Below are positions 38,677 to 60,400 of a DNA stretch of 64,000 bases, piece after piece. The notes under the pieces were generated by a model. The model was not told where the DNA came from and searched no databases. It worked only from the letters and a program-made list of their open reading frames with translations. The position numbers and the translations under genes are program-made. This DNA comes from Lachnospiraceae bacterium (lineage in GTDB: Bacteria > Bacillota > Clostridia > Lachnospirales > Lachnospiraceae), in contig JAILAD010000085.1 in the NCBI GenBank assembly GCA_024681795.1, forward strand, positions 1 through 64,000, read 5' to 3'. The stretch's first letter is position 1; each line of letters begins with the position of its first letter.

Positions 38677-38732
38677 TTTCTGATATCCTCCCGTGAATAT
38701 GATATGCCCCTTTCGCATAAACACACGAATAT

Positions 38733-42552: not shown

Positions 42553-44274
42553 TCAGATTTTGCTCTTTAACGCATCGGTCAGTGCATTTAACTGCTCATC
42601 TGCATCCTTCAGGCTCGTTCCCTTGATTCCCATGTAGAATTTGATTTTGGGCTCGGTTCCGGAAGGACGTGCGCAGCACCATGCATCATCCGTCAAATCA
42701 AAATACAGAACGTTGGAGGAAGGAAGACCTGTCGTACCTTCTTCTCCGGTTTCGTAATTCTTTCTGTAATCCTTCTTGTAATCCCTAAATTCACGCACTT
42801 TCCAGGCACCGAATTCGGTGGGAGGATTGGTGCGGAGTTTTTCCATCATCGCCGCAATTTCTTCCAGACCTTCTTTGCCCTTCTTGGAAATTGCGTACTG
42901 GGTTTCCTTGTAATATCCGTATTTCTCGTATACTTCAATCATCATATCCCAGAGAGTGATGCCGTGAACCTTGCAGTAAGAAGCAACTTCGCATAAGCAC
43001 ATAACCGCAACGATTGCATCCTTATCCCTTGCATGGGTTCCGGCAAGGCAGCCGTAGGATTCTTCCAGACCGAATACATAATTGTTGCAGCCGGTCTGCT
43101 CAAAAATCTTAATCTGCTCACCGATATATTTGAATCCGGTTAAGGTCTCGATTTCCTTCACACCGTAATTTGCGCAGATTGCTTTTGCAAGATTCGTCGT
43201 AACGATGGTGGTAACAAGTGCAGGATTTTCAGGCATTGCACCGGTTGCCTTCTTTTCCCTTAAAATATATTCCGCAATTAACATACCTGACATGTTTCCG
43301 GTAAACGGAACATACTCACCCGACTTTGTATCAAGTGCATAGATTCCGAGACGGTCGGCATCCGGGTCGGTCGCCATAACGATGTCCGCACCCTTTTCTT
43401 TTGCAAGCGCAAGTGCATAGGTAAATGCCTTGGGGTCTTCCGGATTCGGATACTCAAGTGTTGTAAAATCAGGGTCCGGAAGTTCCTGCTCGGGAACAAC
43501 ATATACATTTTTAAATCCGAGTTCCGCAAGAACACGGCGAACCGGAATGTTACCGGTACCGTGGAACGGAGTGTAAACAATTTTGATTTCCTCGGCAACC
43601 TTGGCAATTACATCGGGATGAATAATCTGTTTCTTTAACTCTTCCATGTAAAGATCGTCAATCTCTTTACCGATTACATTGTAAAGACCTTTTTCGATGG
43701 CCTCTTTTTTGTCCATGGTCTTCATGGTGTGATAATCGGTAATTGCGTTTACTTCCCCGATAATATTTACGTCGTGAGGCGGAGTTACCTGTGCGCCGTC
43801 TTCCCAGTATACCTTGTATCCGTTATACTCGGGAGGATTGTGGCTTGCCGTAACCATAACTCCGGCAATACATTTTAAAGTACGAAGTGCAAAGGAAAGT
43901 TCCGGGGTCGGACGAAGTGCATCAAACACATAGGTTTTAATTCCGTTTGCAGCGAGGCAGAGTGCCGTTTCATCCGCAAACTCGGGAGACATTCTTCTGT
44001 TATCGTATGAAATTGCAACGCCTCTTTCGGCACCGTTATGTTTCAGTACATAATTTGCAAGTCCCTGGGAAGCCTTTCTTACGGTATAACTGTTCATACG
44101 GTTGCATCCTGCACCGATAACGCCGCGAAGTCCGCCGGTACCGAACTCCAGATCCTTATAAAAACGATCCTCGACCTCCTTTTCGTCATTGCGGATTGCA
44201 AGGAGTTCCTCCTTCGTTTTGGCATCAAAATAATCATCATTCAACCAAAATTCAAACTGTTCTCTGTAGCCCAT
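42553..44274 (-). CDS. pgcA: Phosphoglucomutase / phosphomannomutase
   Basis: The 573-residue alpha-D-phosphohexomutase has the active-site serine Ser144 in GVMVTASHNP, a metal loop DPDADRLG, a sugar-binding loop with GLEESYG, and the phosphate-binding RPSGTEPKIKFY. It interconverts glucose 6-phosphate and glucose 1-phosphate, which feeds RfbA in the same locus; it may also use mannose. Size matches Firmicute PgcA. The ATG at 44274 has AAGGAG seven bases upstream; a GTG two codons earlier is less likely. Confidence 0.93.
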   Translation of the reverse strand: MGYREQFEFWLNDDYFDAKTKEELLAIRNDEKEVEDRFYKDLEFGTGGLRGVIGAGCNRMNSYTVRKASQGLANYVLKHNGAERGVAISYDNRRMSPEFADETALCLAANGIKTYVFDALRPTPELSFALRTLKCIAGVMVTASHNPPEYNGYKVYWEDGAQVTPPHDVNIIGEVNAITDYHTMKTMDKKEAIEKGLYNVIGKEIDDLYMEELKKQIIHPDVIAKVAEEIKIVYTPFHGTGNIPVRRVLAELGFKNVYVVPEQELPDPDFTTLEYPNPEDPKAFTYALALAKEKGADIVMATDPDADRLGIYALDTKSGEYVPFTGNMSGMLIAEYILREKKATGAMPENPALVTTIVTTNLAKAICANYGVKEIETLTGFKYIGEQIKIFEQTGCNNYVFGLEESYGCLAGTHARDKDAIVAVMCLCEVASYCKVHGITLWDMMIEVYEKYGYYKETQYAISKKGKEGLEEIAAMMEKLRTNPPTEFGAWKVREFRDYKKDYRKNYETGEEGTTGLPSSNVLYFDLTDDAWCCARPSGTEPKIKFYMGIKGTSLKDADEQLNALTDALKSKI

Positions 44275-44335
44275 AAGCACTCTCCTTTTCTTGTAACTGT
44301 TTATATTATTTGTAACTGTATCTGTTTACCGAAAA

Positions 44336-46297
44336 TTAATCCCTCACAATCTTCAGCGTGTAATCGAGATATTTCAGGCTGAAGTTCTCGTTGTAATACG
44401 GATCCCCCGCCTCAATCTCTGCCTTCCACCTGTTCCGGAATGCCTCGCTTTCTTTTTCGAAAGCCTCCTTTGCCTCTTCGCTGTCATTTACGGGAGCCAT
44501 CGGAATCTCGTTATAGAAAGATTCGGCAAACGGTGTAAAGACGTTGAGTTTTCCGAGCGCACGAAGTTTTAAACAAAGATCCACGTCGTAATAATGCTCG
44601 TCGAAAAGTTTCTCCTCAAATCCTCCGGCTTCCTCAAAATCCTTCTTTTTTACCATCATCGAAGCACCGGAGACCGCCGTCATATTCTGTGCATAGCAGA
44701 GTCTTCCCATATATCCGATATGCGTGTAATAACACTTGTAATGGACGTGTCCCGCGCATCCCTGATCACCGAGACCGAGAACGATTCCGGCATGTTCAAC
44801 GGTCTTATCGTCAAACAGGCATTTGCCGCCCGCTGCACCGATATCGTCCCTCTGTACGTACATCAAAAGTTCCTCGATATAATCCGCAGTGGTCGGACGG
44901 ATTCCGGGTTTTAAGAATAACAGGAATTCTCCCTTTGCAATCTTTGCACCCGCATTATAAAATGCCGGAAGATGACTTCCTTTTGCGATGTTCATGACCT
45001 TGATGAAGGGATCCGTTTCATATTCCTTCTGAAGCATTACCACGTCTTCCGCAGAACCGTCGCTTACAAGAATCAGTTCGTCAATCTCATCATCCGTCTT
45101 TTTCAGGGCTTCTATCGTATCCTTAAAGGAAACATCCCCGCCTCTTGCAGGCAGAATCACGGATACCTTTCCGGTTGTCGTAATATCGTACTGCAGTCTG
45201 AAAATCGTCTCAAACGCACGGGTACTTGTAATCGTCGTATCGTAGATTCCGTAGGTGTTTAAGTGTGCATCCACCGCTCTTTTCGCAGCATCCACCGCAT
45301 AAAATTTGGCATTGATGTCTTTCGCCACACTGCCCGCATGTGCTCTCCAATAATATAAAATTTTCGGCACATGGACTACATGCTTTGCAAGGGAAGTCAG
45401 TCTTAAAATCATGTCATGGTCCTGGCTTCCGTCAAATTCCGTCCGGAATAACTGTGTTTCCGCCAGAAGGCTTCTCTTAAACAAACTGAAATGGCAGATA
45501 TAGTTGTTTGCACGGAGTGTGTCCAATGCATAATCCGGCTTAAAATGCAGGGTATCCATGTTGTTGATGGAGTCTCCCATAAAGGTTGCTTCATCACAGT
45601 ATACGTAGTCTGCATTTTTCTCGTCTATTGCTTTCCGGTATTCGAAAAATGCGCATGGATGCAGAATATCGTCGTGATCAAACAAACCGATGTAATCACC
45701 GGTTGCCATCTTGTAGCACTCATTCGTATTCCCTGAAATACCCTCATTCTTTTCCAGTTTCTCATAGCGGATTCTCGGATCTGCCTCCGCATATTTTCTG
45801 CAGATATCACCGACATACGCATGCTCCGCATCGGACCCGTCCGCAAGACATAATTCCCAGTCCGGATAAGTCTGGTATTTCACGGAATCTATCATGTCCG
45901 TCAGGAATTTTTCCGGGGTATTATAAAGCGGAACCAGTACGGAAAACGTAATCTTCTGCTCATACTTTACACTTTCCTGACGCTTTCTTTCTTCCTCTGA
46001 AGGGAAAGAATCCGTACCGAGAAGGGAGTAAGCACGCTTTAAGCGTTTCTTGTAATCCGCGCGTTCCATGATTCTCTTCGGGGTTCTGTAACATTCCAGT
46101 TTTGCGATTCCGACTCTTGCAAGACGCAACGGTTTGGAAAGTTTCCATGCAAAACTGTGCTTAATCCGGTAGAGATTTTCCTCCGTTTCTTTTTTGGAGG
46201 TCTCCATCAGGGTAAGCCTGGAATTTAACTCACGGTTTTCCTGTTTTAACTTTTTTACCTGCTGTCTTAAATACAGCAGTTCCTCTTTTTCGTCCAT
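44336..46297 (-). CDS. Family 2 glycosyltransferase with two GT-A segments
   Basis: 653 residues. A coiled-coil start (about 1-55, LRQQVKKLKQENRELNSR) leads to a first GT-A domain (118-330, SVLVPLYNTPEKFLTDM and FDHDDI metal site) and a second, divergent one (from about 390, KVSVILPARGGD). The second half also carries FDEHYYDVDLC, a typical later GT-2 motif. One or both domains may be active. It adds one or two sugars during assembly of the polysaccharide. The ATG is preceded by AAGGA, 10 bp after the preceding stop. Confidence 0.87.
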   Translation of the reverse strand: MDEKEELLYLRQQVKKLKQENRELNSRLTLMETSKKETEENLYRIKHSFAWKLSKPLRLARVGIAKLECYRTPKRIMERADYKKRLKRAYSLLGTDSFPSEEERKRQESVKYEQKITFSVLVPLYNTPEKFLTDMIDSVKYQTYPDWELCLADGSDAEHAYVGDICRKYAEADPRIRYEKLEKNEGISGNTNECYKMATGDYIGLFDHDDILHPCAFFEYRKAIDEKNADYVYCDEATFMGDSINNMDTLHFKPDYALDTLRANNYICHFSLFKRSLLAETQLFRTEFDGSQDHDMILRLTSLAKHVVHVPKILYYWRAHAGSVAKDINAKFYAVDAAKRAVDAHLNTYGIYDTTITSTRAFETIFRLQYDITTTGKVSVILPARGGDVSFKDTIEALKKTDDEIDELILVSDGSAEDVVMLQKEYETDPFIKVMNIAKGSHLPAFYNAGAKIAKGEFLLFLKPGIRPTTADYIEELLMYVQRDDIGAAGGKCLFDDKTVEHAGIVLGLGDQGCAGHVHYKCYYTHIGYMGRLCYAQNMTAVSGASMMVKKKDFEEAGGFEEKLFDEHYYDVDLCLKLRALGKLNVFTPFAESFYNEIPMAPVNDSEEAKEAFEKESEAFRNRWKAEIEAGDPYYNENFSLKYLDYTLKIVRD

Positions 46298-46306
46298 ACA
46301 ATATCC

Positions 46307-48388
46307 TTAATTGTTCCCTTCCATCACGAGCTTTTCACCGGTCCGCTGGTAGAGATACAGTTTCTTTAATACATCGTCCGCATAGATGCCGATTTCATAG
46401 GTATCCGGCGGCAGTTCGCCCGTTGTGACGAAATTGCAGAAACCTGAGAGCTGAAGATTCGTTGCACCCTGATAGGTTCCTTCCAGATTCGTCCGCAAAA
46501 ATTCCGGCATCGGCATTACATATTTACCCTTCGTTCCTTCGAATACCATGTAGAAACGAAACCGCATGTTGTCAATCATCGGAACCACATGATATCCCTG
46601 AAGGACAAAAAATTCTTCTCCGCAGGAGCGGGCAAATTCTTCTTTTTCAAGCCGGTCGAAATGTACGATAATTCCTTCCGGATATTTGCGGTAATCGAAA
46701 TTCGTCGGTCTCGGGCATTCCTCTTTCGGTTTCTTTCTTAAGAAATTGTTCTCCGCATCAAACCCGAGTTCCGAGCCGCCTGCTGCCGGTGCCGACTCAT
46801 ACGGATCCATATTGTAAATATCCGGATGAAGCGAGTAAAGGAGTTTTCTTTCTTTGGAAAGCCTCTCCAGTTTCTCTTCCGAAAGATGGTCCGCCCCGCG
46901 GCTTAAGGATTCATGATGATAAAAAACGCAGTCCGGTCTTAATACCATCCTCTTTTTCAGATCCCGGAGGGAGAAGCATAAATCCACATCGTTATATGCT
47001 ATCCTGAGTTCTTCCTTCAGTCCTCCGACGGCATCGTAATCTTCTTTCCTGATCATCAGGCAGGCACCTGTAACGCCGATGCAGTCGTGCACGAAACGGT
47101 TTCTTAAATAATCCGTTTTTTCACGGTCATCCTTCCCGATGAATTTATGAACGGGACCGTCCACCGCATTCGTAATTCCGACATGCTGAATGACGGAAGA
47201 ATTCGGGTATAAAAGCTTTGCACCCACCGCTCCGACTCCGGGAACGGATAGCTGTCCCGCCATCCTTTTTAATGCATCACCGGTAATCATCTCCATGTCA
47301 TCGTTTAACAAAAGCAGAAGATTTCCCTTCGCATGCCTTACTCCCACATTGTTCATATGGGAAAAATTAAACTCTTCTTTTTCGTAAATATAAGTAAATC
47401 CTGCAGTTTCGGAAGCATCCCCGATTCTTTTTTTATTCTCATCGCTGCTTCCGTTATCCACAACGATAATTTCCGTCTCAAACGGCTGCTCATGTGCGTT
47501 AAGCGATTCGATACACCTAAGCAGGACATCCGGATTGTCCTTCGAAGGAATAATGACGGAAAGAACGGTTCCTTCCTTAACGGGATATACCGGATACTCT
47601 CTGTTTAAATCCTCTTCCGTCATATAATCCGGCTGAAACAGGCTCTTTTCAAATGACGGCCGTACCGTTTCCGGTGTGTCGTCCCAACCATCGTCCGTAT
47701 TTCCGAAGGAGTCTGCTTTTTTCATAAAAAGCTCTTCTTTCCGCTTTGCATCCCCTTCTTCAAATACAATCGGCTCTTCGCCGGGGCGACGGTGTACATG
47801 CTGCAGAATCAACGGAAGATGATATACCGTATCCTCTCCGTAACGGTAAAGATTTCGGAGCATATAATCATAAATGCTTTCCCCTTCCGTTCCGGGAAAC
47901 TTTTCAAATGCTTCTTTCCGGAATGCAACCATGTTGCCGAAGTAAAAGTAAGAAAGCAGGGTTTCCGGAGAATAAACCGGTTTAAAGCGGATATTGCTTC
48001 TTTTACTTACTTTAATCCCCTGTTTTTTTAACGTATCCCACTCGGAATCCTCCGCAATAACACAGTCCTCATCCGCATAAATTACCAGTACTCCGGGGTG
48101 TTCCTCAAATGCTTTTACAATCTCCCATTCGGCAGTTTTGGAAAGAACGGAATCGGAGGATAAATAAATCATCACATCCGAATTTGCCGGCCTTACTCCG
48201 CCTTCGAGTTCGCAAAGTTCCGACGACAGGTGTAGTTCTTTTTCCGACCGGACTTTTTCTTCCAGTTCTTTTTCCTGCTGCTGTACATATACATCAAAGG
48301 AGTTGCTTAAAAAAGCCAGGCGGTTTTCATATTCTTTTTTTCTCGGAGCAATCATGATGCTCCTTGCAAGTTTCTTTATCGTACCCAT
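46307..48388 (-). CDS. Large family 2 glycosyltransferase, probably two-domain
   Basis: 693 residues. The first third resembles a GT-A fold lacking its start (YLSSDSVLSKTAEWEI, YADEDCVI). From about residue 278 a clear GT-A domain follows: LSVIIPSKDNPDVLL, VDNGSSDENKK, LLLNDDMEMI and AYNDVDLC. Residues after about 570 form a separate beta-rich region. The first domain may be inactive. Usual rhamnan/O-polysaccharide clusters carry such large enzymes. Ribosome site poor; gap to the methyltransferase gene is 14 bp. Confidence 0.85.
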   Translation of the reverse strand: MGTIKKLARSIMIAPRKKEYENRLAFLSNSFDVYVQQQEKELEEKVRSEKELHLSSELCELEGGVRPANSDVMIYLSSDSVLSKTAEWEIVKAFEEHPGVLVIYADEDCVIAEDSEWDTLKKQGIKVSKRSNIRFKPVYSPETLLSYFYFGNMVAFRKEAFEKFPGTEGESIYDYMLRNLYRYGEDTVYHLPLILQHVHRRPGEEPIVFEEGDAKRKEELFMKKADSFGNTDDGWDDTPETVRPSFEKSLFQPDYMTEEDLNREYPVYPVKEGTVLSVIIPSKDNPDVLLRCIESLNAHEQPFETEIIVVDNGSSDENKKRIGDASETAGFTYIYEKEEFNFSHMNNVGVRHAKGNLLLLLNDDMEMITGDALKRMAGQLSVPGVGAVGAKLLYPNSSVIQHVGITNAVDGPVHKFIGKDDREKTDYLRNRFVHDCIGVTGACLMIRKEDYDAVGGLKEELRIAYNDVDLCFSLRDLKKRMVLRPDCVFYHHESLSRGADHLSEEKLERLSKERKLLYSLHPDIYNMDPYESAPAAGGSELGFDAENNFLRKKPKEECPRPTNFDYRKYPEGIIVHFDRLEKEEFARSCGEEFFVLQGYHVVPMIDNMRFRFYMVFEGTKGKYVMPMPEFLRTNLEGTYQGATNLQLSGFCNFVTTGELPPDTYEIGIYADDVLKKLYLYQRTGEKLVMEGNN

Positions 48389-48402: not shown

Positions 48403-50424
48403 CTACAGATACCTTGCCGCTTCCCCGGACAGCTGTTCAATCCGAAGCTGAATCCGGAGTTTTTCCCCGTTTTTTGTCAGTCCGTGCGCATTCTTCGGCA
48501 GGACAAATGCAAAATGCGGATCGTTATCAGTAAATAAAAAACCGTTGCTTCCGAGACGTTTCCCGTTGGTGTCCCTTTTTGAAAAATTCTTCTTCAGGGC
48601 GATATCCGAAAGATCCTCCGTTCCGACGGATACCGCACGCACCAGCACGATTGCGGGTCTGTTCCCGGGATCGATTCTTAATTTTTTCAGTCCCTCTTTC
48701 ACCGGCAGGAAGAACTCCACTTCCTTTCCCACCTGATGATAATCATTCACAATATAAGAATTTTCTTCCGAAAAGCCTTTTCCGAAATCTTCATAAATCT
48801 GAATGCTTCCGTCATATCTGCCGCATTCTTCACGCATATAATCAAGAGAAAATGCCGGCTTCCCGATTTCATGACGAATGTCACTCATTGCAGGGTGGCC
48901 GCCCTGAACCTTCTTCTGGAAATTTCTTTCCCTTTGGACAACGGAAGAGAAATCCTCCGTAATTTTGCACCAGTCCTTGCAGATTGCGCGTTTGGAATTT
49001 CCCTGAATATAGCACCAGATTGCTCTCTTTTTGATCTCATCCGAAGGGATTACTTCGAACTCGGTCCATTCGTAATCGATTACACTCCAGTGTGCACCGT
49101 CCACGAGAATATTCTGGAAAATCAGATCGTAATCGCTGACCGGATCCTCTTCGTGATAGGATATGATTTTTACGTATCTTTCATAAAGTTTTAAAAATCC
49201 TTCCCTGTCGCCCGTATCAATGCAGCGGTCCAGCAGTTCTTCCAGCGAAGTCCCGGAGAGGAATTCAAACCGCAGGGTATCTTCCGAAATTCTTTTGCAT
49301 TTGTTAAACGCAATTTCACTTCCCTCAAAACGTTTCGTCAATGCTTCATAAGCTTTTTCGAGATTTCTTATATGTTCTTCTGCTTCTTTCGTTACGGCAC
49401 GTTTTGTAACGAAAAATCCGTCCGCATCCTTTTCAATGGTTGTACAGATTCCGAAACAGTCATCCCTGTCATTGGAATACTTTACCATTTTCTGCGGAAG
49501 CTCCGGCCCGATTACGGCAAGATAGGAATTCGAAAACAGCGGAAATTCCTTCTCCTCGAGAATCGTATCGAACACCTTTGTCTCATCCATTAAAATCAGC
49601 CGCTCACGGTCGAAATTCCGGATGTTGTCATGAAGTTCTCCCTTCTTCGGAAGGTACTCATCCGAATAAATCATATGCGGAAATTTATAATCCGGATAGG
49701 GATAATAAAACGAGTACTCTTTTACGTTACAGGTGGAAAAAATATCTTCCAGCCCCCTTCTCGTAAACGTCTTCGCAACGCCCCTTCCGGGATACCCTTC
49801 CAGTCCTTCGAAATACCGTCCCGCATGGTCTTCCGTGCATCCGGCAAAGTATTTAAGTCCCATTTTATTTTCAATCGCGATATAGATTCTTCCGCCGGGT
49901 TTTAAATGCTTTAAAAGAATCTTCAGGAAATCTTCATACGGTGTATCTCCGCTCATATAGCCGAACGCATATTCAAAAACACCGATCAGCATAATTGCAT
50001 CGAAGTCACTGTCAAGGGAGGTTTCGATATCCTTAAAATTACCGACCATAATCGTTACATTGTCGGCATCCTTTAAGCGGTACGCATTTACCAGACTTCT
50101 CTTTTCGGATAAATCAATCCCCGTAACGGAACCTGCTTTTTTGGAAAGCGCACCGGTAATGGCACCGCACCCCGAACCGACTTCCAGAACCTTATCCGTT
50201 TTGCCGATCGGAAGCCACTCGACAATATTGGTCCTGAACGGGGAAAAATGATAAAGCACGGGCCAGTTTTTCCGTTTCTCCGTAACGGTACGGTATTCCT
50301 TTTCGGAGTGATTTTTCGCAATCTCCAAAAGCTCGTCCTCGATATCCCCGTCGGAATAGCGGTCAACGCCTTCGTAGAAACGCTCATCCAATATGATTTT
50401 TCCGACTGTCTTCGTTTCCGCCAT
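48403..50424 (-). CDS. Methyltransferase-kinase fusion (WbdD-like, inferred)
   Basis: 673 residues in three parts. Residues 55-250 form a SAM methyltransferase with motif I LEVGSGCG at 80-87. Residues about 300-460 look like a protein-kinase-type fold: lysine Lys341 (FFVTKRAV), helix-C glutamate Glu356 or Glu360, catalytic loop YDLIFQN (Asp433, Asn438), and metal-site IDYEW (Asp450). The rest to 673 is beta-rich. E. coli WbdD, a methyltransferase-kinase, caps O9a polymannose chains and its product is recognised by Wzt. The gene overlaps wzt by 41 bp. No long C-terminal coiled-coil ruler as in WbdD is seen. Family is seen directly; cap function is inferred. Confidence 0.75.
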   Translation of the reverse strand: MAETKTVGKIILDERFYEGVDRYSDGDIEDELLEIAKNHSEKEYRTVTEKRKNWPVLYHFSPFRTNIVEWLPIGKTDKVLEVGSGCGAITGALSKKAGSVTGIDLSEKRSLVNAYRLKDADNVTIMVGNFKDIETSLDSDFDAIMLIGVFEYAFGYMSGDTPYEDFLKILLKHLKPGGRIYIAIENKMGLKYFAGCTEDHAGRYFEGLEGYPGRGVAKTFTRRGLEDIFSTCNVKEYSFYYPYPDYKFPHMIYSDEYLPKKGELHDNIRNFDRERLILMDETKVFDTILEEKEFPLFSNSYLAVIGPELPQKMVKYSNDRDDCFGICTTIEKDADGFFVTKRAVTKEAEEHIRNLEKAYEALTKRFEGSEIAFNKCKRISEDTLRFEFLSGTSLEELLDRCIDTGDREGFLKLYERYVKIISYHEEDPVSDYDLIFQNILVDGAHWSVIDYEWTEFEVIPSDEIKKRAIWCYIQGNSKRAICKDWCKITEDFSSVVQRERNFQKKVQGGHPAMSDIRHEIGKPAFSLDYMREECGRYDGSIQIYEDFGKGFSEENSYIVNDYHQVGKEVEFFLPVKEGLKKLRIDPGNRPAIVLVRAVSVGTEDLSDIALKKNFSKRDTNGKRLGSNGFLFTDNDPHFAFVLPKNAHGLTKNGEKLRIQLRIEQLSGEAARYL

Positions 50425-51727
50425 CTGCTTCCTCTTCTTTTTCCACTATCTTCGGAGTCCAGGTTCCCGTAATATTTTTTACTTCCACCTTCGATTCCAT
50501 ATCGTAGAAACCGACCGTATCCTTATCGGACACAACCGTAATGTTAATCGCATCATAAAGCCTGTGATAAACCGTAAAATCACTGCCTTCATATCCCGTC
50601 AGGCCGAAGGATAAAAGATATTCCCCGCCCTGCAGAGTCATTCTCTGACGGAAGGTAATCTCCTTTCTTTCACCGGCGTGCATGGGCTCTAAAAAGGTTC
50701 TCTCAAACATCGTATTGGTTCCGGTGATTTCCGTACCGCGTACATTCTTTACGGAGAATGCAAAAATCGGAGCCTGCAGTTCTTCAAATGCCTCAACCTG
50801 CATGTGAACCGTAAATTCGTTTCCCTTGATGATGGCATTGGTTTCCCTGTCCTTTTCGTCCGTCACGGATACCGAGGAAATCTCCGCTTTCCGGGAACCG
50901 TATTCCAGTGTATCCGGATTTAATCCCTTGCTCAGTGCAGCTTCCACCGCATTCTTCGTTTCCTCTTCCGATTCTCCGTCCGCATTGTACTGTCCGACGA
51001 GTACCTGCTTGTAGATATCAATCATTTCCTTCGGAGTCCCTTCACCGAGTTTCACTCCCTGATTGAGAAGGATTACGCGGTCGCAGTATTTTGAAACGGA
51101 ACTTAAATCGTGGCTTACAAAAAGAATCGTTTTGCCGAGCTTTTTAAATTCCTCGAATTTGCGGTAGCATTTCGCCTGAAAGAAAACATCCCCGACGCTC
51201 AGAGCCTCGTCGACAATCAGAATTTCCGGCTCAATATTGATTGCAATCGCAAACGCGAGTCTGACAAACATACCGGAAGAGTATGTTTTTACGGGCTGGT
51301 ATACAAACTCTCCGATATCGGCAAATTCAAGAATTCCCTGAAGTTTTGCATCGATTTCCTCTTTGGAAAAACCGATCATCGTACCGTTTAAGTAAATATT
51401 CTCCATTCCGGTATACTCGGAATTAAATCCCGCGCCGAGTTCGAGAAGCGCGGAAATACGGCCGTTTACCTGAATACTTCCGCTTGTCTCGTGCAAAACT
51501 CCGGTAATGATTTTCAAAATGGTGGATTTTCCGGAACCGTTCGTTCCGATAATGCCGACCGTCTCACCGCGTTTTACTTCAAAACTCACATCCTTTAATG
51601 CCGCATGTTCCCCGTATTTTCTCCAGGGCATTAAATGAAACGTGTCAATGACACGATCCATGGGCTTCGGATAAAGCTTATATATTTTATTGACATGTTC
51701 GATTGATATCGCTGTATTTTCGTCCAT
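50384..51727 (-). CDS. wzt: ABC transporter ATPase for polysaccharide export (Wzt-like), with carbohydrate-binding tail
   Basis: 447 residues. Residues 1-245 form an ABC ATPase with Walker A GTNGSGKS (61-68), signature YSSGMFVRLAFA and Walker B LIVDEALS. Residues after about 285 form a beta-sandwich tail of the Wzt C-terminal type (EFTVHMQVEAF, VKNVRGTEITGTNT), which in E. coli O9a recognises the chain terminus. The gene ends within the start of the methyltransferase-kinase gene, 41 bp overlapping. It pairs with the Wzm-like permease. Start with AAAGGA and a gap of 51 bp. Confidence 0.93.
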   Translation of the reverse strand: MDENTAISIEHVNKIYKLYPKPMDRVIDTFHLMPWRKYGEHAALKDVSFEVKRGETVGIIGTNGSGKSTILKIITGVLHETSGSIQVNGRISALLELGAGFNSEYTGMENIYLNGTMIGFSKEEIDAKLQGILEFADIGEFVYQPVKTYSSGMFVRLAFAIAINIEPEILIVDEALSVGDVFFQAKCYRKFEEFKKLGKTILFVSHDLSSVSKYCDRVILLNQGVKLGEGTPKEMIDIYKQVLVGQYNADGESEEETKNAVEAALSKGLNPDTLEYGSRKAEISSVSVTDEKDRETNAIIKGNEFTVHMQVEAFEELQAPIFAFSVKNVRGTEITGTNTMFERTFLEPMHAGERKEITFRQRMTLQGGEYLLSFGLTGYEGSDFTVYHRLYDAINITVVSDKDTVGFYDMESKVEVKNITGTWTPKIVEKEEEADGGNEDSRKNHIG

Positions 51728-51778: not shown

Positions 51779-52798
51779 TTACAATACATCCGCAAAATGC
51801 GGTTTCAGACGTTTGAAAATCAGTGCGCCGATTACAAAAATAATCGCGGTGATAATCCAGAAAAACATCGTGGAGTAAAAGTCCTCAAAAAACCATTCCT
51901 TCTCAAACATCGCCGTCCGATATCCGTTGATGATGTAGAATACCGGGTTCAGTTTAAAAATGATGCGGAATTTCTCGGGAATCACTCCGATTTCCCAGAG
52001 AATCGGGGTTCCCCACATTCCGAGCTGCAATCCGATTCCGATAATCTGCGACAGATCCCGGAAGAATACGACAACCGCACAGGTGGAATAGGAAATCGCA
52101 AGTGTCAGGCAGAACATACAGAAGCTGTAATAAACCACCTGGATCAGATACAGACTCGGTTTATATCCGTAAAAGAAATACAAAGCCAGCATTACCAGCA
52201 CAAAAAACGAATGGATAAACGTTGCCGCAATGACTTTGATAATCGGCAGAATACTGATTTTAAAAACCACTTTTTTAACCAGATAATTGTATTCGATTAA
52301 TGCATTCATTCCGCCGACCAGTGCTTCCGAAAAATAAAACCACGGAATCAGACCTGCCGTCAGCCAGAGCACGTACGGTGCAGCAATCCCGCTCGCCGCA
52401 AGCTGCGCCCTCGCAGGGAAAATCAGTCCGAATACAAAATAGTACATAGCAATGGTAACCACCGGCTGGATAAATGCCCAGACACGTCCCATCGTGGATC
52501 CGGCATAACGTTTCTTAAAATCATTTTTTGCCAGTTTCCAGATTAATTCTCTGTTCGCCCACAATTCCCCCGGCAGACTCATGATTTTTTCATAGAAACC
52601 GATATAGGCCGTAAGCGCACTAAGGACCATTGCTACTGCAATGGCCTTTTTTATCAGCTCCTCTTTCGGTACGGCAAAAGGATTGTGATGGAAAATAATG
52701 ATTGCGATAAAGATTAAATCAACCACCACTCCGATTGCAATTCCGGCACCTTTCGGAAGCGTTGTATTTTTATTGTTTTTCGTAAGCGCCTTTGCCAT
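51779..52798 (-). CDS. wzm: ABC-2 permease for polysaccharide export (Wzm-like)
   Basis: The 339-residue ABC-2 permease has two N-terminal helices (about 17-35 and 53-70) not usual for Wzm, followed by the standard cytoplasmic amphipathic segment LIWKLAKNDFKKRYAGSTMG and six helices. It exports lipid-linked polysaccharide across the membrane with Wzt. Start at 52798 with AAAGGAG ten bases upstream; the longer reading would overlap rfbC. Confidence 0.92.
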   Translation of the reverse strand: MAKALTKNNKNTTLPKGAGIAIGVVVDLIFIAIIIFHHNPFAVPKEELIKKAIAVAMVLSALTAYIGFYEKIMSLPGELWANRELIWKLAKNDFKKRYAGSTMGRVWAFIQPVVTIAMYYFVFGLIFPARAQLAASGIAAPYVLWLTAGLIPWFYFSEALVGGMNALIEYNYLVKKVVFKISILPIIKVIAATFIHSFFVLVMLALYFFYGYKPSLYLIQVVYYSFCMFCLTLAISYSTCAVVVFFRDLSQIIGIGLQLGMWGTPILWEIGVIPEKFRIIFKLNPVFYIINGYRTAMFEKEWFFEDFYSTMFFWIITAIIFVIGALIFKRLKPHFADVL

Positions 52799-52803
52799 TC
52801 TGA

Positions 52804-53361
52804 TTACTGCTCCTTTTTCAGATCCGTTATGGAGCCCCATCTGGTATCCTTATCCGAAAGGATCAGTTCCATGCCCTCCGGTATCGGCCACTCGATTCCG
52901 ATAGCAGGATCGTTGTATAAGATTCCGCCCTCATCGTTCGGGTGATAAAAATCCGTACACTTATAACAGAATTCCGCATAATCGGAAAGTACCAAAAATC
53001 CGTGTGCAAAATTCTTCGGAATAAAAAACTGTTTCTTGTTTTCTTCGGAAAGCAGTACACCGAACCATTTTCCGTAGGTTTCGGAACCTTCTCTTAAATC
53101 CACCGCCACATCAAATACTTCTCCTCTGATGACACGGACCAGTTTGTCCTGAGGAAACTGTATCTGAAAATGAAGTCCTCTTAAAACTCCTTTTTTGGAT
53201 GCGGACTGATTGTCCTGTACAAACGGCAAATCGATTCCGATTTCCTTAAAATCATTTGCCTGATAGGTCTCCATGAAATATCCGCGCTTATCACCGAAAA
53301 CCTGCGGAGTAATTACCTTTAATCCTTCAATCTCACATGTTTCGACCGTTAATTTACCCAT
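52804..53361 (-). CDS. rfbC: dTDP-4-dehydrorhamnose 3,5-epimerase
   Basis: The 185-residue cupin enzyme has the conserved LRGLHFQ (catalytic His), the IRGEVFDVAVDLR strand and the FAHGFLVLSD segment. It converts dTDP-4-keto-6-deoxyglucose to dTDP-4-keto-rhamnose. It is in the rfbB-rfbA-rfbC set; rfbD, the last reductase, is not in this window. The gap upstream holds a 20-bp-spaced repeat. Confidence 0.95.
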   Translation of the reverse strand: MGKLTVETCEIEGLKVITPQVFGDKRGYFMETYQANDFKEIGIDLPFVQDNQSASKKGVLRGLHFQIQFPQDKLVRVIRGEVFDVAVDLREGSETYGKWFGVLLSEENKKQFFIPKNFAHGFLVLSDYAEFCYKCTDFYHPNDEGGILYNDPAIGIEWPIPEGMELILSDKDTRWGSITDLKKEQ

Positions 53362-53484: not shown

Positions 53485-54354
53485 TTACAGTCCTTCCGCG
53501 ATGTCCTTTAAATACTGTCCGTAAGCGGTTTTCATTAAAGGCTCTGCAAGTTTTAAAAGCTGTTCCCTTGAAATAAAGCCTCTCTTGTATGCGATTTCCT
53601 CAATGCAGGAAATATAAAGTCCCTGACGTTTCTGGAATGCGGACACAAAATCCGAAGCATCCAAAAGTGCATCGTGATTTCCGGTATCCAGCCAGGCAAA
53701 ACCTCTTCCGAGCGGCTCCACGTGAAGCGTTCCTCTTCTTAAATACTCATTGTTGATGCTGGTAATTTCGATTTCGCCTCTTGCGGAAGGTTTCACGTTC
53801 CTGGCGATTTCCACAACGTCATTGTCGTAAAAATACAATCCCGGAACCGCGTAATTGCTCTTCGGATGCTCCGGTTTTTCCTCGATGGAAATTGCTTTTC
53901 CGTTTTCGTCAAATTCGACAACACCGTATTCTCTCGGGTCTCTTACATAGTATCCGAAAATAGTCGCGCCTTCTTTTCTCGAAGCCACCTCGCGAAGTAC
54001 CTTGGAAAAACTCTGCCCGTAAAAAATATTGTCGCCGAGAATCAGGGATACCGAATCGTCACCGATAAATTTTTCTCCGATCAGAAATGCATCCGCCAGT
54101 CCTCTCGGATACTCCTGTACGGCATATTCCATATGCAGTCCGAGATCGCTTCCGTCACCAAACAGTTCTTTAAATACCGGGAGATCCCTCGGTGTGGAAA
54201 TAATCAGAATATCCCGGATATCCGCAAGCATCAGAATGGATAACGGATAATAAATCATCGGCTTGTCATAAACCGGCATAATCTGTTTGGATATGGCTTT
54301 GGTAAGCGGATATAATCTTGTACCGGATCCTCCGGCGAGGATAATACCTTTCAT
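53485..54354 (-). CDS. rfbA: Glucose-1-phosphate thymidylyltransferase
   Basis: The 289-residue nucleotidyltransferase starts [17 protein letters not shown], with LGDNIFYG and DTGNHDALL signatures, in the RfbA/RmlA family. It makes dTDP-glucose from dTTP and glucose 1-phosphate, supplied by the phosphoglucomutase of this locus. AAAGGAG lies six bases before the ATG; the gap to rfbB is 11 bp. Confidence 0.96.
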
Positions 54355-54365
54355 GGCAGGCTCCT

Positions 54366-55451
54366 TTATCTTCCTGTATACATATCGTTATAATATTTCT
54401 GATAATCTCCGCTGGTGACGTTCTTCATCCAGTCTTCGTGTTCGAAATACCACTGAATGGTCAGGCGGATTCCGTCCTTAAACATTGTTTCCGGTTCCCA
54501 GCCGAGATCTTTCTTAATCTTGTCAGGTGCAATTGCATATCTTCTGTCATGCCCCTTGCGGTCCGTAACATAGGTGATCAGATCACGGTTGATATATGCT
54601 TTTCTCGGATCGCCTTCCGGAAGCATTTCCTGAAGGGTGTCCAGAATAATTTCAATAATTTCGATATTCTTTTTTTCATTATGACCGCCGATATTGTAAC
54701 GTTCAAATAATTTTCCCTGCTCCTGAACCATGTCGATTGCTTTTGCGTGATCCATTACATATAGCCAGTCACGGACATTTTTTCCGTCTCCGTATACCGG
54801 AAGTTTCTTTCCCTGAAGTGCATTGTTGATAATTAACGGAATCAATTTTTCCGGGAACTGGTAAGGTCCGTAGTTATTGGAACAGTTCGTGATGTTTGCC
54901 GGGAATTTATAAGTGTCCATATACGCCTTTACCAAAAGATCGGAAGAAGCCTTACTGGAGGAGTAAGGGGAGTGCGGATCAATCGGGGACGTCTCATAGA
55001 AATACGCATTCGGATCATCCGGAAGAGAACCGTATACTTCATCCGTGGATACATGAAGGAATTTCTTTCCCTCCTTAAAACTTCCGTCGGGAAGTTCCCA
55101 TGCAGCTTTTGCGCAGTTTAACATTACCGCGGTACCAAGAACGTTTGTATTTACAAAAACCTCCGGGTTTTTAATGGAACGGTCCACATGACTCTCCGCA
55201 GCAAAATGAACCACGCGGTCGATATCGTTTTCTTCAAAAATCTCGCTGATTGCCGCCTTATCCGTGATATCGGCTTTTACAAAAGTGTAATTCGGCAGTT
55301 TTTCAATATCCTTTAAGTTTTCCAGATTACCTGCATAGGTTAAAACATCAACATTGATAATACGGATTTCATCCCCGTATTTTTTTAACATATAGTGAAT
55401 GTAATTGGATCCGATAAAACCGGCACCTCCCGTAACAAGATACGTTCTCAT
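54366..55451 (-). CDS. rfbB: dTDP-glucose 4,6-dehydratase
   Basis: The 361-residue short-chain dehydrogenase (SDR extended) has a nucleotide-binding [11 protein letters not shown] near the start, the HVSTDEVYG block and a catalytic Tyr/Lys pair in [11 protein letters not shown]. It gives dTDP-4-keto-6-deoxyglucose. AAGGAG before the ATG. First gene of the surface-polysaccharide operon, driven by the promoter at 55555-55583. Confidence 0.96.
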
Positions 55452-55554: not shown

Positions 55555-55583
55555 ATTCTATCATAAAAGGGCATTTATATCAA
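55555..55583 (-). promoter_or_regulatory. Sigma-A promoter of the rfb operon
   Basis: TTGATA (55578-55583) and TAGAAT (55555-55560) with 17-bp spacing on the minus strand. The -35 covers the TGA stop (55580-55582) of the preceding gene. Confidence 0.82.
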
Positions 55584-56356
55584 CATTTCGGAATATTTGA
55601 GGAGTCCACATAGACAATATACCCTTCCGTTTCAAAAAACACCTCAAACCCGTAATCCGTCAGGCTTTTGTCAACATAATGGTTTTTGTTTAAAACAATA
55701 TAGTGGCAGCCTCTTTCTCTGGCAAGACCGGTAAGGTTTTCGGCATTGGAAACATCATTCAGCATTTCATACTCCAAATCATCCGTAAATCCCCATCTTG
55801 CAACCAGCGTCTCATATCCGTAAGGCATCTTGATATAAGGCGTATACTGGCGCACGTAAGGCACCAGTTCGTGGGGAAATACCGCTTCCACCTCACGCCC
55901 CGGAACATTCATCGCATCACAGAGTTCAATTACCTGTTCCGGAATCTGATATGCATTCGTAGCAGGAATCATGACCGGACTTTGGTAACCCGGATTTCCG
56001 CCGATTGCAATACAGATTAAGGCAACCGCTCCGATTACGAATTTCAGCCATTTGAATTTGATTTTCTCCATGAAGACTATCGTTGCATAAGTGGAAACCG
56101 CACTCATCGGAATCAGCCATAAAAAACGGTAAAATGTTTCTCCTTCATGAAAAACATTGCAAACAAGATACGGAAAGAGCGGAATAAAGAAAATCAAAAG
56201 AATTACCATCGGGTACTCCGCCATCAGTTTTCGGATGCCTCTGTCTTTTTCCGTAACCAGCAGAAAAACAACCGCTACCAGAAAATACAAAAGCAGAAGC
56301 CCGTTCCCGCCGAAAGCCAGAACGGTATCAAGTGACTGTTTCAAATATGTAACCAT
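55580..56356 (-). CDS. Membrane protein, possible C-terminal half of a DUF6077-like protein
   Basis: The 258-residue protein has about four N-terminal membrane helices (residues 15-125) then a soluble C-terminal domain (130-258, HYIVLNKNHYVDKSL). The ATG at 56356 follows AGGAGG five bases upstream. In the DNA, the preceding ORF ends at TAG and this one continues in the same frame only four codons later, so the two may be parts of one protein of about 607 residues. Function unknown; probably envelope-related. Confidence 0.6.
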   Translation of the reverse strand: MVTYLKQSLDTVLAFGGNGLLLLYFLVAVVFLLVTEKDRGIRKLMAEYPMVILLIFFIPLFPYLVCNVFHEGETFYRFLWLIPMSAVSTYATIVFMEKIKFKWLKFVIGAVALICIAIGGNPGYQSPVMIPATNAYQIPEQVIELCDAMNVPGREVEAVFPHELVPYVRQYTPYIKMPYGYETLVARWGFTDDLEYEMLNDVSNAENLTGLARERGCHYIVLNKNHYVDKSLTDYGFEVFFETEGYIVYVDSSNIPKC

Positions 56357-56365
56357 CCGGACCTC

Positions 56366-57403
56366 CTAAAAACAGATTTTATAAAGCAGTGCCAGAATCC
56401 CGACCGGGAGTACGGCAATCATGCTTACCACCACCGGCGATATTTTTTTCCGGGCGATTGCAACCGCCGCACTTCCGATTAAAAACATCGGCGGCAGCAG
56501 AAGCACTCCCGTTGTGGCATTCGTAAGTGCCGCAAGCATGGTACAGGCAGAAAGAATACCGTATATCAGTCTTTTTTGTCTCCACTGCTTACCGGTCTCC
56601 TCCTCTTTTACCAGAAGCAGAAGAAGCCAGAACGCAAAGGGAATGCATAAATTTGCGATTACGCTCTTTCCCTGCCAGGTTCTGGTAAGTAAAAATGTCG
56701 CACCCGTAAAGAACGAGACATTTCCGAATACGTCAAAAACACAGATAAAGCAGGCGAAAAGCGCTGCATTTTCTTCTTTCTTTTCAAACAGAATCCGTCC
56801 GATTCCGTAATAAACGATATAGTGAAGAATCAGGAGAATGTCCGCATAAACAATATGCGCCGTGATTGCCGGATGAAGTTTGATGCAGTCAGAGAGAAAC
56901 GCAAGAAAAACTCCTCCGGGCGAAATGGCATGCCTTACATCAAGCCCCGTCTCAAATCCCGTATAAGGATCCAGAACATACATGGAGTTACCGAAGTAGG
57001 AATTAACCGCCGTTCCGAGAAAGAACGCATCGTCCCCGTCCGTTACCCCCTGAAACCATCTTGCAACACACTGCAGAACAACAAGGATTATAAAGACGAT
57101 AAAAAGAGGATGGATTTTCGGGAACGTAAGACTCTTAATATCCCTCCACCCGAGCAGTAAAAATGAAAAAGAAAGGAAGCCCGCACTGAGTCTGAAAATC
57201 AGACAAAGCGTCCGGAAATCCGCTTTGAAAAACAAAGCCGGGAGATATTCGCACTCAAAGAGGGCCATCATAATCAGATAGCCCACCACGAAAATCATTC
57301 CCGGCGAACGGTATTTTTTTTGCAGGTAAGAACAGGGGAAAATCCCCAGGCCGAACGGAACCGCAATCAGCCAGAGGATCCCCAGAACTACATTCAGTAT
57401 CAT
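56366..57403 (-). CDS. Multi-spanning membrane protein, N-terminal half of a DUF6077-like protein
   Basis: The 345-residue protein has about ten hydrophobic helices and a Gly-Asp-Asp-rich loop (GVTDGDDAFFLGTAVN) near residue 120. It resembles the polytopic DUF6077-type proteins, perhaps GT-C enzymes with Asp in the first large loop; this relationship is tentative. It ends with TAG, in frame with the next ORF. Poor ribosome site; the start is 3 bp after the GH25 gene's stop. Confidence 0.62.
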   Translation of the reverse strand: MILNVVLGILWLIAVPFGLGIFPCSYLQKKYRSPGMIFVVGYLIMMALFECEYLPALFFKADFRTLCLIFRLSAGFLSFSFLLLGWRDIKSLTFPKIHPLFIVFIILVVLQCVARWFQGVTDGDDAFFLGTAVNSYFGNSMYVLDPYTGFETGLDVRHAISPGGVFLAFLSDCIKLHPAITAHIVYADILLILHYIVYYGIGRILFEKKEENAALFACFICVFDVFGNVSFFTGATFLLTRTWQGKSVIANLCIPFAFWLLLLLVKEEETGKQWRQKRLIYGILSACTMLAALTNATTGVLLLPPMFLIGSAAVAIARKKISPVVVSMIAVLPVGILALLYKICF

Positions 57404-57406
57404 ATT

Positions 57407-60400
57407 TTAATATCCCAGATAGCTGGTGTTGATATCCACATTGCCGTTAATACCGTTGATTCTGCCGGTGCTGGAACTCTGCCAGAGTTCGTACTTACCG
57501 GTATAATCGGTCTGCGAGCAGTAATGTGCCAGCCATATTTTATAATTATTAAGGGAACCTGCGTCCAGGTTGTTGTAATACCAGGACTTGGAAGCATAAA
57601 CTCCGGGGGTATATCCCGCCGAACGAATGGTCTCGCAGAATGCACGGCATACCGCGGTTCTCTCTGCTTTACCGAGGCCGTCCGCCCTTGCATTATGTGC
57701 GGTACTTCCGTATTCGCTGTCGATAAAAATCGGATAGGAAATACGGTGTCTCTGCGCCATGGAAATTGCCATGGAAGCCTCTTCCACCGCTTCTCTTTCG
57801 TTAACCGCCTGGGAGAAGAAGTATACGCCGACTTTCAGTCCCGCTGCTTCCGCACCGGATGCATAAGTATGGAAATTCGGATCTTCAATCAGTCCGCCGA
57901 GCGTACATCCTCTGTATCCGCAACGGATAATAACGAAGGATACGCCGGACTGTTTTACCGCATTCCAGTTGATGGAACCGTTCCACTTGCTGACATCGAT
58001 TCCCATGGTACCGCTTCCGACCGAAAGCGTTCCGTCACTGGCGAAATTATATTTTACCCCGCCGATGACCTGTTCCCCGGTCACATATTTTCCTTCGGAA
58101 TTGTAGTACCTGGTACTTCCGTTTTCATTCTGCCAGCCGTATAACTTAACTTCCATGAGATAGAAAACATTGTACTTATAGTAATCGGCAATCTTTGCCT
58201 CTCTGTAATTCTCTCCGTCTTTTACATAAAGGGTAACAACGGTACCGTCTTCCTTCTTGTAGGTAAGCGGTGTCTTTGTATCGTTCACGGCTGAATTAAC
58301 GGTAACCGTACAACTTACGGTAATTCTCTTTCCGTCCTTTGTCTTTCCTTCAGTCTTGCAGGTTATGGTTGCTTTTCCTTTTGCTTTACCGGTTACGGTT
58401 CCGTCCGAGGAAACGGTTGCAATCGATTCGTCGCTTGAACTCCATGTAACGGAGGTGTCCGCAGAAGGACCTTCCGTCGATACATTGGGAGTCAGTTTTG
58501 CAGTCGCACCGATTGATACGGACAGCGTATTCTTATCAAGAGTGAGATCGGTCACATATCCCTTTGCCGCAGCCACGGTGATGTTGAGGGTTGACGTCGC
58601 GGGATTTCCGTCGCTCTTTTTTCCGTTTGAAGTGATGGTAATGGTTGCACTGCCTTCACCCTTTGCCTGAATTGTTCCGTCCACTGCAACCGAAACCACA
58701 CCGGTATCGGAAGAACTGAAAGTGACGGAAGTATCCACTCCCGGACCGTCCGACAAAACATCCACACTGATCCATGCGGTATCCCCGACATTCAGATTTG
58801 TTCCGGGATCCACCGCCGCATTGATTCCCGTAACATAATACTCGGGTGCTTTTACGGTAATACTGCAGGAAGCGGTTACCTTATTTCCGTTATCGTCTTT
58901 CGCTCGACAGGAAACAGTCGTGCTTCCGGTTCCGCGAGCCGTAACGTTTCCGTTTTCATCCACCGTTGCAACCCCCGGATTATCGGTTGTCCAACGTAAG
59001 GAAACACTGATTTCACTTCCTTCTTCATCCCAAGCGGAAACGGATAAAGAAGAACTGTCCCCGACATTCATGGTCATGGAGGATTCGCTGATATCAAGCG
59101 ATGTTACCCTGTGTTCAACCGGCTCGGGTTCCGGTTCCGGCTTGTCCGTCTCATCCGGCTCCGTTTCGTCGTCGGGAGAAGGCTCCGCGTTATAGGAGGA
59201 CTGCCCTACCGAAATCATGGCCTGCGGATCCGCAATTTTATCCTTCGAAATCTCGGTATAAACCGTCTTCTTCGAAGAGTCCACCCAGCCGACCGTATCG
59301 GATAAAACCACACCGGTATCCACGGTTTTCGCCTTTTTATCTTCCGTTGCAACGTTTATGTCTTTTTCTTTTTTAATCTCGTTTACGATATTGATTGCGG
59401 TATAGGAAATCTTATCCTTTACCGTTACCTCCGACTCCGTATCGGGGAAAACATAATCTTCCACGTTCAGGATTTTTACATAATATTTTCCGGGTGTTAA
59501 GTTCTCCATATAGATCACACCGTCTTTGTCGGAATCATCCCAGGTAACCGTTTTACCGTCCGGAGTTCTTGCTTCCACGCGGAATAAAATTCCCTTAATC
59601 AGGGTATCCGTCTGCTTGTCGGAGAATTTGATTTTCAGGTCTTTTTCAATCGAGGCGAAATTAACCGACACATCCTTCCTGGGTGCTTTCTCCTCGGAAG
59701 GCTTTTCGCTTTTCTTCTCTTCTTCCGAAACAGATTCAACTACAGTTGTAGTCTTATTTGCAACAATCTCATCAATTCCGTTCCGGCCGATATCTCCAAC
59801 CGACATTAACCGGTTTCCGGCACTTGCAAGAGTCTCATACTGTGTCTGGCTTCTGTTCTTTGAAATAAAAGTGATTGCCAGCGCACAGATTACCAGAACT
59901 GCCACAATTGCACTTACAACAAGGAGAATATCAAATACTCCCGTTTTCTTTTTCTGTTTCCGGGGTGCGGCACCGGCTTTGGAAGCTCCGGAATTTGCAC
60001 CGGCCGGATGATTTTTCCCGGATGCACTGCTGCCGCTTTTTTCACCTTTCTTAGCAACCGCAGGCGTTTCACCCTTTTTATGTTCCTCTGCTTTTTTTTG
60101 TTCCGTCCCCTTATTTTTCTCCCGGGGTTTTTTCTTTACATCTTCGTCATGGTAGGACAAATCACCCAATGCTTCCGCTTCCGCTCTGCTTACCGGAACG
60201 TCGTCATCGATTTCGTCGCCGGGGAGAAGTTCAATGTCACGATGAACTTTTCTCCGCGCAGGTGCAACTTCTTTAGATTCCCCTTCCACCGTGGTGTTTT
60301 CTTCATCCTCACCGGAAGCATCTTCCTCATAAGAATCATCATCTTCTTCATAAGAATCGTCTTCTTCCTCATAAGAATCGTCTTCTTCCTCGGCAGCGGA

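Follow-up and report, generated by a model that had tools for sequence, protein, structure and literature searches.

Introduction

In Escherichia coli O9a, the chain terminator WbdD is coupled to the cap-binding domain of the export ATPase Wzt. The catalytic Asp of WbdD lies five residues before N356. Another terminator, ORF6 of Klebsiella pneumoniae O7, combines a methyltransferase, an unannotated kinase (with D441), a domain resembling a carbohydrate-binding module (CBM), a coiled coil, and two glycosyltransferase (GT) modules of type GT2 (PMC11231755). Here, we analyzed a 64,000-nucleotide stretch (the window) of contig JAILAD010000085.1 from a Lachnospiraceae bacterium (assembly GCA_024681795.1), in which wzt is followed by a gene for a 673-residue methyltransferase-kinase, named MTK in the following. 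With a probability of about 0.74, we read MTK as an O7 ORF6-type terminator which is split from a coil-bearing polymerase and works with a Wzt that reads the cap, within a Gram-positive locus for a rhamnose wall polymer.

In vitro, O7 ORF6 acts on a repeat-unit mimic, whose terminal rhamnose it phosphorylates and partly methylphosphorylates; the D441A exchange abolishes this activity (PMC11231755). Its residues binding S-adenosylmethionine (SAM) are Y28, Y66, G91, G93, E112, and Y158, and its kinase was judged by the authors to be quite different from that of WbdD. Orthologs occur in alpha- and gammaproteobacteria and in cyanobacteria, and homologs were described in a Methanoculleus and a Gluconacetobacter. 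Some orthologs end after the coil, so that fusion to the GT modules is optional, and all contain the coil (PMC11231755).

Results

Methyltransferase and candidate kinase domains of MTK

The original prediction, made from the sequence without database searches, described MTK as a WbdD-like enzyme encoded next to a Wzt with a carbohydrate-binding tail. Most of its concrete readings were recovered. The MTK start overlaps the wzt end by 41 bp, the SAM motif LEVGSGCG is located at residues 80-87 of MTK, and K341, D433, N438, and D450 are present as described. In Pfam searches, Methyltransf_11, Methyltransf_12, and Methyltransf_25 scored over the cut-off in MTK, and Wzt matched PF00005 (84.6 bits, likewise over the cut-off) and, with its tail, PF14524 (141.4 bits versus a cut-off of 30.4). 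The apparent Gram-positive setting is in line with a LytR-CpsA-Psr (LCP) protein (PF03816), a WbaP-type transferase (PF02397), and rml-type genes in the same cluster.

In the second domain of MTK, K341, D433, N438, D450, E452, and W453 were invariant in all 38 aligned relatives. Of 140 loci with a kinase domain, 138 had the full set K341, D433, N438, and D450 (K-D-N-D), for which all four residues in a single kinase gene of the locus were sufficient; the kinase profile was made from sequences bearing these residues, which favors their recovery. The two incomplete loci are L155, which is cut by the contig end, and L193, in which the residues are lost. Conservation of D433, N438, and D450, to which the original prediction had tied its kinase assignment, thus held up. 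Against the Protein Data Bank (PDB), the whole-protein profile matched JAK2 at residues 331-450 (E about 2e-4, among the best 60 matches listed). The kinase-only profile gave PKR as the best match (6.7e-5), followed by GCN2 (1.1e-4) and JAK2 (5.8e-4), and in two PKR alignments D433 was paired with the catalytic Asp and D450 with the Asp of the DFG motif.

Residues 530-660 were mostly modeled as strands, with a block predicted local distance difference test (pLDDT) score of 45-78 in a low-confidence model from a two-row alignment. In this part, R583, D585, P586, D635, and P636 are common to MTK and L105, a homolog from a Pseudomonas asturiensis plasmid, and the R583-x-D585-P586 pattern is incomplete in a Citrobacter homolog. 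No GT family was detected by Pfam in the 673-residue chain, and no MTK relative was found in the viral_contigs set. A match to the CBM-like part alone (profile positions 544-650, E 2e-13) was found at L079 (G320:C1:6231135-6231455), in a 480-residue frame from another family of the same phylum.

Probable grouping of MTK with O7 ORF6

L105 served as a proxy for O7 ORF6. It has Y28, Y66, G91, G93, E112, and Y158 at numbers identical to those of ORF6, and its kinase Asp is at 443 versus 441 in ORF6. Aligned via L105, the corresponding residues of MTK are Y23, Y58, G83, G85, D104, and Y152, with D104 in place of E112. D433 of MTK corresponds to D443 in L105 and to D446 in the homolog from Citrobacter braakii. 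This 649-residue homolog is encoded on a plasmid that carries rml genes, a transposase, a permease, and an ATPase ahead of it; the order is rml-permease-ATPase-MTK-GT, with the transposase inserted ahead of the permease. In the ecoli_genomes set, the Citrobacter homolog had no match. By these residues and via the proxy, the best-supported grouping of MTK is with the O7 ORF6 terminator and not with WbdD. Strict kinship with WbdD was not supported; the nearest characterized enzyme found for MTK is O7 ORF6 (PMC11231755).

Linkage to Wzt in Lachnospiraceae

Of 299 genomes sampled from the window's family, 180 contained Wzt_C and 156 gave MTK matches at E ≤ 1e-10, many of which covered just the methyltransferase part; in a phylum-wide sample, 33 of 199 genomes had matches at E 1e-6, mostly short methyltransferase matches. 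To measure linkage, we used 110 stretches selected by Wzt_C alone. Both methyltransferase and kinase domains were located downstream of Wzt_C in 99 of them, either in one open reading frame (ORF; 44 stretches) or in adjacent ORFs (55 stretches), and the first terminator gene started at most 200 bp from Wzt in 86 of the 99. The gene pairing in these stretches is more than chance would give. Among the remaining 11 stretches, two had the kinase only, one had the methyltransferase only (at a contig end), and eight had neither within 6 kb.

Wzt_C loci without a terminator within 6 kb downstream include L134, L162, L164, L201, L202, and L222. For such loci, an MTK match was seen upstream on the same contig in genomes G139 and G298 and on another contig in G034, G116, and G261.

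A coiled coil on the neighboring polymerase candidate

Coiled coils were scored with a home-made heptad score compared with shuffled sequences, which is not a published predictor. The original prediction had noted that the coiled-coil ruler of WbdD is missing. By this score, no coil was found in MTK itself (z 1.3; no segment reached 0.85). For the locus, an absent ruler was rejected: GT653, encoded two genes downstream of MTK, has a coil at residues 1-42 (z 6.0; positions 46172-46297). Near the N terminus, 22 of 26 GT653 homologs (those above 400 bits in L033-L073) scored above all 30 shuffles. In four control families, scored over the whole chain against 20 shuffles, every shuffle was exceeded by 0/25 PGM, 0/23 GT425, 2/31 RmlB, and 3/28 GT693 sequences; among MTK relatives, this held for 7/37, long fused ones included.

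GT653 aligned with the C-terminal half of L105 over 586 positions with 30% identity (E 3.6e-77). In 32 of 48 long proteins (47 kinase-domain proteins of more than 900 residues and L105), a coil lies between the kinase and the first GT match, a count that includes proteins without a GT match. Because GT653 aligns with the C-terminal half of L105 and carries the coil, an ORF6-type machine appears to be divided here into MTK and GT653, with the cut ahead of the coil. From its place on GT653, the coil might still space polymerase and terminator and might measure chain length.

Apparent loss of the methyl step and retention of the kinase residues

We compared 149 loci, 110 of them selected by Wzt_C and 39 by MTK or being the window itself; L104 and L105 were left out of the Lachnospiraceae counts, and L068, L070, and L071 are stretches without Wzt. 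The SAM motif was intact in 99 loci, of a Q type in 21, and degraded in 19, and no methyltransferase was found in 10. Together, 40 of the 149 loci have an altered or degraded methyltransferase, and one locus has such a kinase. Q-type sequences also lack Y23 and mostly E151/Y152. Ten degraded or near-degraded sequences were viewed, and several were without most of the methyltransferase domain. L048 barely differs; its loss may be recent or its label wrong. L158 counts as degraded only through a contig end and was left out of the degraded set in the tree-pair and covariation tests.

The kinase residues were complete in 21/21 Q-type loci, 17/18 degraded loci, and 2/2 loci without a methyltransferase. 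On a quick kinase tree (139 rows), the distribution of intact versus other motifs needs 15 changes, at least 8 of which are forced by well-supported branches. In a good part of the MTK relatives, the methyl step thus seems to be gone and the phosphate step retained.

Two loci have unusual terminator genes. L193 (1747-3372) is the only one of the 140 loci in which K, D, N, and D are all substituted; its methyltransferase is reduced, too, and the gene directly follows a Wzt with T323/S375. In L219, tandem methyltransferase-kinase genes follow Wzt. The one for 622 residues has Gln for the catalytic Asp, and the one for 1431 residues has complete kinase residues.

The predicted cap-binding pocket of Wzt

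The solved chain nearest to Wzt is 8dku, the Wzt of Aquifex (E 4.8e-79 over 9-398). In the Aquifex protein, the cap methyl lies in a pocket of Leu300, Thr346, Ala348, and Trp362 (PMC9445017). The alignment pairs S325 of Wzt with Leu300, S373 with Thr346, G375 with Ala348, R389 with Trp362, and N338 with Asn313, and it places A323 next to Ile299. A hand match of F384 to His355 was dropped, since the alignment places F384 at 357. R389 and N338 were invariant in 149/149 loci. Arg at the R389 position is also found in Citrobacter, in Pseudomonas, and in 2r5o, which we take to be the E. coli O9a Wzt domain; Aquifex, with its methyl-sugar cap, has Trp362.

Two positions followed the state of the methyltransferase. 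At Wzt 375, Gly was present in 96/99 loci with an intact motif and Ser in 21/21 Q-type loci; degraded loci had Ser (11) or Gly (8), and loci without a methyltransferase had Ser (8) or Gly (2). At Wzt 323, Ala was present in 96/99 intact loci and Thr in 21/21 Q-type loci, with Thr (15) or Ala (4) in the degraded loci and Thr (8) or Ala (2) where no methyltransferase was found. Exceptions with an intact motif are L188 and L178 (T/S) and L140 and L214 (a different residue at one of the positions); L048, L149, L116, and L158, labeled as degraded, have A/G; and L066, L196, L199, and L208 have T323 with G375.

When 333 Wzt columns were scored by independent pairs on the kinase tree, position 375 ranked first, 333 second, and 323 third; position 333 does not belong to the four-residue methyl pocket. 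Among the columns listed, the phylogenetic sign test for 323 was not significant, with a median p of 0.125 on the kinase tree (8 well-supported pairs) and a p of 0.5 on the tree of the nucleotide-binding domain (NBD; 4 pairs). Intact and Q-type loci differed at 16/135 variable columns of the NBD and 8/120 of the cap-binding domain (CBD). Because NBD columns differ as well, shared ancestry explains part of the covariation. The covariation of 375 and 323 with the methyltransferase state is a lead only. One tentative reading, to which we give somewhat less than an even chance, is a two-state cap code in Lachnospiraceae: the phosphate cap, not the methyl, would be the conserved export ticket; methylation would have been lost repeatedly; and the Wzt pocket would have switched from Gly375 to Ser and from Ala323 to Thr, with Arg389 kept to hold the phosphate.

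Layout of the locus and its surroundings

Read along the coding strand, the genes run rmlB, rmlA, rmlC, wzm, wzt, MTK, GT693, GT653, phosphohexomutase, GT425, GT323, WbaP-type transferase, and LCP (Table 1). Much of this arrangement is repeated in L033-L073 (41 stretches, selected by MTK matches), and the single named relative, with 80% identity, is an uncultured Lachnospiraceae bacterium.

Upstream in the window (57407-60829), a 1140-residue GH25 protein with Big_2 and choline-binding-like repeat matches is encoded. In many relatives (within L035-L066), rmlA and rmlC are separated by another GH25 gene, and the window has none at that place. A membrane-type pair (55580-57403) consists of a 345-residue protein (DUF6077, PF19554, near full length) and a 258-residue protein without a Pfam family. 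Since L033 and L034 have both ORFs, the split is not a window-specific frameshift.

Table 1. Features of the MTK locus, with positions in the window
Feature	Position	Strand	Basis
MTK, 673 aa: class I methyltransferase, kinase, and beta-rich CBM-like domain; proposed chain terminator	48403-50424	-	ORF; Pfam; profile matches to protein kinases
MTK methyltransferase domain, residues 8-285; SAM motif LEVGSGCG 80-87	49570-50403	-	Pfam, alignment
MTK candidate kinase domain, residues 290-525; K341, D433, N438, D450, E452, W453	48850-49557	-	Alignment, profile
MTK C-terminal beta-rich domain, residues 530-660; putative counterpart of the immunoglobulin (Ig)/CBM-like domain of O7 ORF6	48445-48837	-	Low-confidence model, alignment
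Wzt, 447 aa: ABC (ATP-binding cassette) ATPase and C-terminal cap-binding domain	50384-51727	-	PF00005, PF14524
Wzt_C cap-binding domain, residues 274-410 of Wzt	50498-50908	-	PF14524; alignment to Aquifex Wzt
Wzm permease	51779-52840	-	PF01061
GT693, GT2 glycosyltransferase	46307-48388	-	PF00535
GT653: two GT2 domains after an N-terminal coiled coil; proposed as the polymerase half of an O7-type machine	44336-46297	-	PF00535 twice
GT653 coiled coil, residues 1-42	46172-46297	-	Home-made heptad score, z 6.0
Phosphohexomutase	42553-44280	-	PF02878-PF02880
Two GT2 glycosyltransferases (GT323, GT425)	40215-41186 and 41190-42467	-	PF00535
Initiating sugar transferase, probably WbaP type	38802-40202	-	PF02397
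LytR-CpsA-Psr (LCP) protein, likely joins polymer to wall	37558-38724	-	PF03816
rmlC	52804-53361	-	PF00908
Probable rmlA (named after Pfam)	53485-54354	-	PF00483
Probable rmlB (named after Pfam)	54366-55451	-	PF16363/PF01370

Discussion

A cap-and-export system working like WbdD/Wzt, as originally suggested, is supported by a methyltransferase-kinase gene that adjoins a Wzt with a cap-reading domain. We propose that the cluster builds a rhamnose-containing wall polymer on a lipid carrier. By analogy to the action of O7 ORF6 on rhamnose, the kinase domain of MTK would phosphorylate the non-reducing end and stop growth, and the methyltransferase domain would then methylate the end phosphate. The capped end would bind the C-terminal domain of Wzt and be admitted to export by Wzm/Wzt, and the LCP protein would join the exported polymer to the wall. 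MTK and GT653 would together represent one split ORF6-like chain with the coil left on the polymerase, where it may act as a spacer to the terminator.

Several results weigh against this reading. The coil in the same chain, present in O7 ORF6 with all its orthologs and in WbdD, is absent from MTK, and kinship with ORF6 was judged via the L105 proxy and published residue numbers. K341 is not kept in the Gram-negative homologs: Pseudomonas has H359, and the Citrobacter residue is R361 in one alignment and K in another. The D450 position is occupied by E464 in Citrobacter. No kinase family was among the 12 Pfam families matched by the window's MTK or among the 25 of 48 Pfam families listed for 38 MTK members; nor was there a kinase among the 25 of 41 NCBIfam families listed for MTK. 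The helix-C Glu356/360 of the original prediction are present in MTK, and there is no conserved helix-C Glu in this domain: Glu occurs at 356 in 20/149 and at 360 in 51/149 aligned kinase-domain pieces. The kinase assignment rests on sequence, since AlphaFold2 models from a two-row alignment were too poor for use (residues 225-673, pLDDT 45.9 and predicted template modeling score [pTM] 0.32; residues 296-530, pLDDT 39.6 and pTM 0.32). Finally, eight of the 110 Wzt_C stretches lack both domains within 6 kb, two of them being at contig ends.

Other explanations account for parts of these data. MTK shares with WbdD the methyltransferase-kinase order next to Wzt, and the WbdD metal residues N356 and D369, the DFG Asp (PMC3482155), correspond to N438 and D450. 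A true WbdD-family enzyme is nevertheless quite unlikely: this order and the combination of catalytic Asp, metal Asn, and DFG-type Asp are, as far as known, shared by the O7 type and thus not diagnostic, WbdD was not among the best 60 of 228 and the best 60 of 210 PDB profile matches, the residue pattern and domain order fit O7 ORF6, and no coil follows the MTK kinase. The kinase-like domain might also phosphorylate a different target (a lipid carrier, a protein, or an internal sugar) without capping the chain. It need not share a substrate with the methyltransferase, as the nearest kinase domain is a separate gene product of less than 900 residues in 28 of the 149 loci and part of a protein of more than 900 residues in 46. 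We consider such a role unlikely, given that in all 99 Wzt_C-selected positives the kinase shares an ORF with the methyltransferase or is encoded in the adjacent one and that the O7 kinase acts on terminal rhamnose (PMC11231755).

The known Gram-positive precedent, with a methyl cap, is WsaE of Geobacillus, which caps a rhamnan by 2-O-methylation and is encoded by overlapping wzm-wzt-wsaE genes (PMC2943079). If MTK worked in this manner, its methyltransferase would methylate the terminal rhamnose directly and the kinase-like domain would be a catalytically dead scaffold. A dead kinase predicts the reverse of what was seen in loci with an altered or degraded methyltransferase, where the kinase residues are kept. 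A WsaE-like enzyme appears very unlikely. In WsaE, the methyltransferase is fused to two rhamnosyltransferases, and MTK has a kinase-type domain instead.

An O7 ORF6-type terminator at this locus would extend a Gram-negative principle. ABC-exported O antigens of Gram-negative bacteria are capped and cap-checked, and the same logic would operate in an apparent wall polymer of a large gut and rumen family; no report of a Gram-positive case of such a terminator was found in the searches made of openly licensed PMC papers. In this family, the methyl step appears to have been lost naturally, terminator, coil, and polymerase are found cut apart, and the transporter has a possible pocket switch. Such variation makes two questions testable: which portion of a cap is recognized, and whether a ruler has to be part of the terminator.

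The Wzm/Wzt of Aquifex aeolicus (8dku) is the closest solved system with a cap-binding domain, and it differs in its 3-O-methyl sugar cap and Trp362, where the window's family has the invariant Arg389 (PMC9445017). WbdD of E. coli O9a resembles MTK as a methyltransferase-kinase terminator (PMC3482155). In contrast to MTK, it has its own coil and acts on a mannan end, and its kinase is quite different from the O7 type (PMC3482155, PMC11231755). With WsaE of Geobacillus stearothermophilus, the locus shares the Gram-positive background, rhamnan, an end modification encoded beside overlapping wzm-wzt genes, and a WbaP-type start; WsaE differs by its direct O-methyl cap, two GT domains in the chain, and an S-layer glycan, and no kinase is mentioned for it (PMC2943079). 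Unlike O7 ORF6, which is one chain with a coil and two GT2 modules and serves lipopolysaccharide, the MTK chain is cut before the coil and is encoded in a Gram-positive wall cluster with an LCP protein. Like O7 ORF6, whose substrate is a rhamnose end, MTK has a methyltransferase, a candidate kinase missed by Pfam-type searches, and then a putative Ig/CBM-like segment, and the two agree, via the proxy, in SAM residues and kinase Asp and in their Wzm/Wzt-type export (PMC11231755).

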